Origin: Natronobiforma cellulositropha
GTDB taxonomy: Archaea > Halobacteriota > Halobacteria > Halobacteriales > Natrialbaceae
NCBI RefSeq assembly: GCF_025629245.1
Contig: NZ_JANZXN010000015.1
Location: 186,001 to 250,000, forward strand
DNA: 64,000 nucleotides
Direction: 5' to 3'
Shown here one piece after another: positions 29,884-32,622 of the stretch. Numbering within the stretch: the first letter of the stretch is position 1; each line of letters opens with the position of its first letter. The notes under the pieces are model-generated. The model ran no database searches. It saw only the letters and a program-made list of their open reading frames with translations, and had not been told where the DNA came from. The position numbers and the translations under genes are program-made.

Positions 29884-32622
29884 ATGACTGACGAGGGGCA
29901 ACTGGGACTCGAGCGCTTCGCCTCGGGCGGGTCCGACAGCGAGCAACGGCCCGCCGAGGAGGCGGCCGCCGTCGCCGGAAACGGCGGGTCGGCGAGTGGG
30001 GACGTCGTCGACGTACTCGAGGAGACCTTACCCGACGCCCAGGGCGAACTCGAGATCGCGGTGATGCAGGTCGATTACACCATCACCGGCCGGGGTGACG
30101 ACGAACGGCCGATTATTCACGTCTTCGGGCGTACCCCAGACGGGACGCTCGAGCACGTGCAAGTGATCGACTTCAGACCCTACTTCTACGCCCCGACGGC
30201 GACGCTCGACGTGAGTGCGCTCGAGCGCGACGACCGGATCACGGGGTGGGAAGAAGCGGGCGCGAACGGCGGCGCTCACGAGAGTATCCGCGGGGAAGCG
30301 CTGACGAAGATCTACGGGCGAACACCGCGCGACGTCGGCCAGATCCGAGACGAGTTCGACCACTACGAGGCGGACATCCTCTTTCCGAACCGGTTTCTGA
30401 TCGACAAAGACGTTCGGAGCGGTATCCGCGTCCCCGACCGGCGTGCCGACGACGGCACCGTGCTCGTCTCCCACGAGGAGGTCGAAGCCGCCCCCGTCGA
30501 GGCGGTCCCGCGCGTACTCACCTTCGACATCGAAGTCGAGGACCGCCACGGCTTCCCCGAAGACGGCGAGGAACCGATCGTCTGTCTCACCAGCCACGAC
30601 TCCGTGCGCGACGAGTACGTCATGTGGCTCTACGAGGCTCCCGAGGGCGACGGCGAGATCCCCGAGGCGATCACCGACTACGAGCCGATTTCCGGCGAGA
30701 TCTCCGCCGACGTTCGCGCCTTCGCCGACGAGGACGCGATGCTCGAGGCGTTTCTCACCTACATCGAAGAGACCGACCCCGACGTCCTGACTGGCTGGAA
30801 CTTCGAGGACTTCGACGCGCCGTACTTCCTCGACCGGCTCGAGCGACGCGACGGTCCCCACCACGACTACGACCTGCGGGTCGAGCGCCTCTCGCGCGTC
30901 GGCGAGGTCTGGCGCAGTGGCTGGGGCGGACCCGACATCAAAGGCCGGGTCGTCTTCGACCTGCTCTACGCCTACAAGCGGACGGTGTTCAGCGAACTCG
31001 ACTCCTACCGACTGGACGCCGTCGGCGAGGTCGAACTCGGCGTCGGCAAGGAACGCTACGCGGGCACCATCGGCGACCTCTGGGAGGAGAACCCGACGCG
31101 ACTGCTCGAGTACAACCTGCGCGACGTCGAACTCTGTGTCGAACTCGACCGCAAACAGGAGATCATCCCCTTCTGGCGCGAGGTGGCGACGTTCGTCGGC
31201 TGTAAACTCGAGGACGCGCCGACGCCGGGTGACGCCGTCGACATGTACGTCCTCCACGAGGCTCACGGCCGCTTCGCGCTGCCCTCGAAGGGCCAACAGG
31301 AGAGCGGCGAGGAGTACGAGGGCGGGGCGGTGTTCGACCCGATCACGGGCGTCAGAGAGAACGTCACCGTCCTCGACCTGAAGAGTCTGTACCCGATGTG
31401 TATGGTGACGGTCAACGCCTCGCCGGAGACGAAAGTCGACCCCGACGACTACGGCGGCGAGACGTTCGTCGCACCGACGGAACCCGAACCCACCCACTTC
31501 CGGAAGGAACCGGACGGGGTCATGCGCGAGATGATCACGGAACTGCTCGCCGAACGTGAGGAGAAGAAGACACTTCGAAATCAGCACGAACCCGGCACAC
31601 CGGAGTACGATCAGTACGACCGTCAGCAAGGAAGTGTCAAAGTAATTATGAATTCTTTATATGGGGTGTCGGGTTGGGATCGCTTCCGCCTCTACGACAA
31701 AGAGGCCGCGGCGGCCATCACGGCGACCGGCCGCGAGGTGATCCGCTTTACCGAGCGAGCGGCAACGGAAATCGACTACGAGGTCGCCTACGGCGACACC
31801 GACTCGGTCATGCTCGAACTCGGTGGCGAGGTGTCGAAAGCGGAGGCACTCGAGCAGTCGTTCGAGATCGAGGAGTACATCAACGGCCGCTACGGCGACT
31901 TCGCAGCCGACGACCTGAACGCCGAGGACCACCGCTTCCAGATCGAGTTCGAGAAGCTCTACCGGCGGTTCTTCCAGGCCGGAACCAAGAAGCGTTACGC
32001 CGGTCACATCGTCTGGAAGGAGGGCAAAGACGTCGACGACATCGACATCACCGGCTTCGAGTACAAACGCTCTGACATCGCGCCGATCACCAAAGAGGTC
32101 CAACACCGCGTCATCGAGATGATCGTCCGCGAGGGTGACATCGAGGAAGTGAAAACCTACCTCGGCGAGGTCATCGAGAACTTCCAGAACGGCGCGGTGA
32201 GTCTCGAGGAGATCGCCATCCCCGGCGGCATCGGCAAACGCCTCGACAACTACGACACCGACACCGCCCACGTGCGCGGGGCGAAGTACGCTAACCGCTT
32301 CCTCGGGACGAACTTCGACCGCGGGAGCAAGCCGAAACGCCTCTACCTCGAGCGGGTCGACCCCGGATTCTTCGTCGAACTCGAGGACGAGCAGGGTCTC
32401 GACGCCCGCCGAGATCCCGTCTACGGCGCGTTCAAGCGCGACCCGGACGTCATCTGCTTCGAGTACGAAGACCAGATCCCCGAGGCGTTCGCGATCGACT
32501 ACGAGGTCATGCTCGAGAAGACCCTCCAGGGACCGATCTCGCGGATTCTCGAGGCACTCGGCATCTCCTGGGAGGAGATCAAATCCGGCCAGGAACAGAC
32601 CGGTCTCGACAGTTTCATGTGA
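29884..32622 (+). CDS. polB: B-family DNA polymerase, intein-free
   Basis: 912 residues. Replicative/repair polymerase with 3'-5' exonuclease Exo I FDIEVEDRHG near residue 213 and Exo II NFEDFDAPYFLDRL. The polymerase motifs are DLKSLYPMCMVT near 500 (region II), KVIMNSLYGVSG at 586-597 (region III) and YGDTDSVML near 634 (region I). The N-terminal 50 residues are acidic and Gly-rich, probably disordered. Many haloarchaeal polB genes carry inteins at these three motifs; none is present here, but the codons from 31627 to 31665 are AT-rich, unlike the rest of the gene (see findings). Confidence 0.95.
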   Translation: MTDEGQLGLERFASGGSDSEQRPAEEAAAVAGNGGSASGDVVDVLEETLPDAQGELEIAVMQVDYTITGRGDDERPIIHVFGRTPDGTLEHVQVIDFRPYFYAPTATLDVSALERDDRITGWEEAGANGGAHESIRGEALTKIYGRTPRDVGQIRDEFDHYEADILFPNRFLIDKDVRSGIRVPDRRADDGTVLVSHEEVEAAPVEAVPRVLTFDIEVEDRHGFPEDGEEPIVCLTSHDSVRDEYVMWLYEAPEGDGEIPEAITDYEPISGEISADVRAFADEDAMLEAFLTYIEETDPDVLTGWNFEDFDAPYFLDRLERRDGPHHDYDLRVERLSRVGEVWRSGWGGPDIKGRVVFDLLYAYKRTVFSELDSYRLDAVGEVELGVGKERYAGTIGDLWEENPTRLLEYNLRDVELCVELDRKQEIIPFWREVATFVGCKLEDAPTPGDAVDMYVLHEAHGRFALPSKGQQESGEEYEGGAVFDPITGVRENVTVLDLKSLYPMCMVTVNASPETKVDPDDYGGETFVAPTEPEPTHFRKEPDGVMREMITELLAEREEKKTLRNQHEPGTPEYDQYDRQQGSVKVIMNSLYGVSGWDRFRLYDKEAAAAITATGREVIRFTERAATEIDYEVAYGDTDSVMLELGGEVSKAEALEQSFEIEEYINGRYGDFAADDLNAEDHRFQIEFEKLYRRFFQAGTKKRYAGHIVWKEGKDVDDIDITGFEYKRSDIAPITKEVQHRVIEMIVREGDIEEVKTYLGEVIENFQNGAVSLEEIAIPGGIGKRLDNYDTDTAHVRGAKYANRFLGTNFDRGSKPKRLYLERVDPGFFVELEDEQGLDARRDPVYGAFKRDPDVICFEYEDQIPEAFAIDYEVMLEKTLQGPISRILEALGISWEEIKSGQEQTGLDSFM
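31627..31665 (+). other. AT-rich codon patch at the polB region III intein insertion point
   Basis: Codons CAA GGA AGT, then AAA GTA ATT ATG AAT TCT TTA TAT GGG, encode QGS and KVIMNSLYG. Every synonymous choice is the A/T-rich one, whereas flanking codons are almost all G/C-ending. The patch is centred on the Asn-Ser pair (residues 590-591), the known insertion point of region III inteins. Confidence 0.85.

Follow-up and report, generated by a model that had tools for sequence, protein, structure and literature searches.

A patch of A/T-ending codons at the empty motif-B intein site of a haloarchaeal polB gene, probably a scar of gene conversion

The polB intein of the site considered here homes in Haloferax volcanii (PMC3024317), and flanking codons may move along with haloarchaeal MCM inteins (PMC10643990). 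The co-conversion associated with LAGLIDADG inteins and introns in these two works resembles the present case in haloarchaeal polB homing, in changes of the flanks that accompany the element and in the use of homologous repair. It differs in that the scar presented below lies in an intein-free allele and was recognised by its codon usage, while its donor and the act of homing are putative. The homing cycle of Soucy et al. 2014 (PMC4071816) likewise involves related genomes that differ patchily in whether their polB and MCM sites are occupied, but that survey scores presence or absence and intein phylogeny, and its main text contains neither "codon" nor "co-conversion". Intein-resistant mcm alleles, which carry a proline after the site (PMC10643990), are comparable in that empty alleles vary in sequence at the junction; there, however, an amino acid blocks splicing, whereas the differences at the polB junction are synonymous and any resistance is putative. 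The mechanism of co-conversion is already known, while a class-wide codon scar visible in empty alleles appears to be new. The titles and passages returned by a partial literature search described no codon scars in empty alleles, which is weak evidence of novelty.

Whether inteins are cyclically gained and lost is difficult to establish, since the protein bears no mark of a clean loss. If homing scars empty alleles, ordinary genomes would reveal the history of invasion, how long conversion tracts are and by which routes archaeal families exchange DNA, and past endonuclease activity could be mapped in genes that lack any intein.

The codon patch in polB

The analysed window is a stretch of 64,000 nucleotides from Natronobiforma cellulositropha. 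The features referred to in the text are as follows (a slash between codons or residues marks an intein insertion point).

29884..32622, plus strand: polB, family B DNA polymerase, intein-free and single copy (open reading frame; Pfam DNA_pol_B and DNA_pol_B_exo1; search of its own genome)
31381..31386, plus strand: motif A intein site, codon 500/501, empty, with ordinary GC3
about 31570-31590, plus strand: weaker A/T-ending run upstream of the patch, codons 563-569
31627..31665, plus strand: codons 582-594, the central part of the A/T-ending patch, most plausibly a scar of gene conversion
31633..31635, plus strand: Ser584 (AGT), a non-synonymous marker within the patch
31651..31656, plus strand: empty motif-B intein site Asn590/Ser591 (AAT/TCT), insertion point between 31653 and 31654
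31795..31800, plus strand: motif C intein site, codon 638/639, with ordinary codons here and a GC3 minimum in other haloarchaea

The polB reading frame is intact and intein-free over its 912 codons (912 aa). The short run of unusual synonymous codons that had been reported in a preliminary description of this DNA is a real patch. Its core reads CAA GGA AGT GTC AAA GTA ATT ATG AAT TCT TTA TAT GGG, in which 10 of 13 codons end in A or T, a bias equalled by only 8 of 20,000 within-gene synonymous shuffles. The lowest-GC3 stretch of the gene comprises the 15 codons from 579 (GC3 of 0.21 versus 0.85 for the whole gene). The codons at the other two insertion motifs are normal, as had also been reported (GC3 of 0.85 at motif A and 0.93 at motif C). 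The patch straddles Asn590/Ser591, and in relatives, inteins of about 345-424 aa start after the homologous Asn. When the window's polB was compared with its 20 nearest relatives, the highest local synonymous divergence of the gene was located at codons 585-599 (3.0x core). The patch also contains a non-synonymous change, Ala584Ser, where family relatives have Ala; Ser584 encoded by AGT is common to the window, the intein-bearing alleles of genus g69, one plasmid PolB and one viral PolB. The weaker run at codons 563-569 (31570-31590) also diverges from several of the nearest relatives. A second polB copy in the same genome was ruled out as a donor, the sole other match being distant (25% identity).

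We consider the patch to be probably the product of short-tract gene conversion at the motif-B intein homing site, from other and often AT-richer lineages (probability of roughly 0.66). The LAGLIDADG endonuclease of site-590 inteins would cut empty polB alleles, and these breaks would start the conversion. Repair would then use another polB copy as template (intein-bearing, empty, or located on a plasmid or virus), and the copying would extend over some tens to about 200 bp of the adjoining extein. Since the donors would often be distant and AT-richer, the recipient, whether or not it acquired the intein, would keep foreign synonymous codons at the junction (and here also Ala584Ser). For the window, the predicted conversion tract spans about 20 codons; its donor is putative, and so is the occurrence of such an event in this lineage.

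Occupancy and synonymous turnover at the polB intein sites

Besides the window's gene, polB was compared in 120 other members of the family and in about 130 haloarchaea from outside it; 248 haloarchaeal alleles were analysed. An intein of about 412 aa occupies codon 590 in 30 of the 121 family alleles, and the occupied-site pattern was matched in 100 of the 392 genomes of the order that were searched, in agreement with the earlier placement of the patch at a known insertion point. Both site-590 inteins that were scanned have Hint and LAGLIDADG domains. The GC3 of the site-590 inteins is 0.71-0.77, compared to 0.86 for the exteins. The window is not alone in having such a patch: A/T-ending haplotypes (for example CAA GGA GCT GTC AAG GTT ATT ATG AAT) recur patchily in many genera, beside GC-ending close relatives, and the N-side haplotype is found in occupied and empty alleles alike.

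Across the 248 alleles, the region of about codons 583-660, which includes sites 590 and 638, combines the lowest GC3 with the highest synonymous diversity and a weak phylogenetic signal. The GC3 minimum of the gene falls within codons 575-655 (9% of the gene) in 137 of the 248 alleles. In 57 empty alleles from other families, motif C (638) ranks 1 and motif B (590) ranks 8 of 897 among the lowest GC3 windows. Codons of about 593-653 in empty alleles show among the lowest correlations with distances over the rest of the gene, as well as the highest synonymous diversity. Similar scars most likely occur in intein-free polB copies across salt-loving archaea.

Of the 44 best runs of rare codons that different families have in common (score of 6 or more), 37 are located at site 590 and 5 at site 500, the independent events being fewer than 44 because the pairs have members in common. 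The run GTC AAA GTA ATT ATG AAT TCT TTA TAT is common to the window and a Haloplanus MAG, and CAA GGA AGT GTC AAA GTA is common to the window and an intein-bearing allele of another family. Codon by codon, families agreed in the A/T base no more often within the patch than elsewhere; the evidence for sharing lies in the runs. Rare-codon runs shared across families (for example GTT CTA GAT TTG AAA AGT) were also observed at codons 492-501, by the motif-A site, in alleles L230, L225, L277 and L314, and they may represent a lesser scar of this type. In the exonuclease domain, codon 305 is a fourth intein site of polB, with an insert of about 451 aa (e.g., alleles L142, L179 and L259). It is occupied in 8-9 of the 121 family alleles, which exceeds the occupancy of motifs A and C in the family, and displays a mild local divergence peak (1.5x) in close pairs.

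The relation between divergence and occupancy was assessed at class level with 78 close polB pairs from 64 genomes, which are less independent than their number suggests owing to shared donors and phylogenetic clustering, and occupancy labels were permuted. In these pairs, divergence reaches 2-3x core at codons of about 571-661. Over codons 575-605, synonymous divergence is 2.62x core when the members of a pair differ in site-590 occupancy and 1.87x when they are in the same state (p = 0.0012). The effect of occupancy along the gene is maximal at codons 571-601 (z of 3.4). It sets in abruptly on the left, near codon 573-583, and fades by about codon 690. Differences are dense from codon 590 onward between empty L230 and occupied L225, and from about codon 573 between empty L215 and occupied L201. 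The greater junction divergence between close alleles of unlike occupancy, which is the comparison that the preliminary description had proposed, supports homing-linked conversion. Because same-state pairs also display a 1.9x excess, much of the turnover is untied to current occupancy. In occupied alleles, the relatedness of the flanks tracked that of the inteins only weakly (partial r of 0.04-0.13, Mantel test).

Codon 590, candidate donors and alternative readings

The patch had originally been proposed to be either a trace of co-conversion beside a former intein or a preserved homing-endonuclease target. The former idea agrees in its general form with the occupancy-linked divergence, but its former intein is hypothetical for this lineage; patches of a similar sort are present in many intein-free relatives. 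None of the sampled occupied alleles matches the whole patch, nor is the window's empty allele identical to any of them with the intein removed. Codon 590 is AAC in 28 of 30 and 65 of 70 occupied alleles, but AAT in the window and in most A/T-rich empty alleles. Removing the intein from an occupied allele would thus not yield the empty patch, unless codon 590 changed later. Intein loss in the window's own lineage is possible but unproven. The proposal of a preserved target appears doubtful, as occupied junctions are mostly AAC/TCG and CTS TAC, not AAT/TCT TTA TAT.

The contrast at codon 590 would arise if AAC came in with the intein or if AAT sites were spared from cutting. In an escape reading, an empty site recoded by synonymous changes, such as AAT/TCT TTA TAT, would be poorly cut, and the patch would be a resistance allele and not an intein relic, the variants having been either selected or spread by endonuclease-induced repair. 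This agrees with the finding that, given ATT588, AAT590 occurs in 30 of 43 empty versus 2 of 37 occupied alleles, and that codon 591 is AGY in 19 of 148 empty versus 1 of 94 occupied alleles. In the family census, 2 of 29 AAT alleles are occupied compared to 28 of 92 AAC alleles. However, the same codon difference is expected if the incoming intein always brings AAC, and occupied alleles show as strong an A/T dip at codons 580-588 and 595-599 as empty ones. The divergence excess extends to about codon 690, past a recognition site of 12-40 bp, and single synonymous changes are tolerated according to in vitro work cited in PMC3024317. We regard escape as an unlikely account of the patch, although it raises the question of whether synonymous changes at an intein site protect against invasion.

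On the N side of the window's patch, the best match, at 8 of 10 codons, is the intein-bearing allele L266, which two empty alleles equal; the best matches of the centre and the C side are empty alleles of other families. The identical rare-codon runs in different families, the shared AGT marker of Ser584 and the sharp one-sided tract edges in close pairs all indicate copying. They make it highly unlikely that the A/T-ending codons arose by local mutagenesis, in which repeated breaks and resection together with cytosine deamination would act with no foreign DNA, even if such a process could explain why sites in both states are diverse and A/T-biased, with little phylogenetic signal.

Two mobile, low-GC3 PolB of chromosomal haloarchaeal type with Ser584 and Val588 were encountered: L498, encoded on a Salinibaculum plasmid (GC3 of 0.59), and L291, on a viral contig of 89.6 kb (GC3 of 0.73). 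Both carry AGT GTC AAG at codons 584-586, close to AGT GTC AAA of the window, and they may be conversion donors or relatives of donors. Their presence would also suit a reading without any role for inteins, in which PolB genes of plasmids or viruses act in conversion through the most conserved parts of the gene. This is even less probable than mutagenesis, as motif A is equally conserved and has no comparable dip, the divergence excess depends on intein occupancy and the recurrent patch pattern was not matched in viral contigs. A blastn search of the patch region against phage records returned nothing relevant. The candidates for a viral occupied-site motif B were rejected, since none of the 36 matches in viral contigs was in a recognisable PolB reading frame.

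MCM and control genes

In 30 MCM alleles that are empty at the Walker-A intein site, this site shows the same kind of dip as polB and has nearly the lowest GC3 of the gene, 0.59-0.61 versus 0.82 (rank 5 of 688), and the next two MCM intein sites have GC3 ranks of 29 and 56. Other conserved MCM motifs have ordinary GC3. The Walker A motifs of RadA and AtpA, which served as controls and were empty in the genomes matched, are also ordinary (GC3 ranks of 123/335 and 240/574, respectively); neither motif is known to carry an intein in haloarchaea. An effect of active-site codons was ruled out by the RadA and AtpA P-loops and the internal motifs of MCM. The same controls, together with the patchy distribution within genera and the lack of any single retained nucleotide consensus, leave hardly any probability to nucleotide-level selection at the catalytic core (translation pausing, RNA structure or an internal regulatory site), even though many genera have a low GC3 at motifs B and C.

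No GC3 dip was detected at the RFC Walker-A intein site or at polB sites 305 and 500, so that the effect is not universal for intein sites. With somewhat less than even confidence, we suggest that homing left readable synonymous scars class-wide, at polB motifs B and C and in MCM, and that part of them may be cut-protective recoding.

The MCM gene of the window's genome lies outside the window, at about 42253-45063 of contig G000:C15 (L336-L338), and encodes a precursor of 1580 aa. It holds three inteins, at GDPGTGK/S, SSSAGL/T and DELDKMR/S (the number of sites was read from the joined sequence), at least one of which has an endonuclease-like region. Given these three inteins, intein traffic reaches the window's own lineage.
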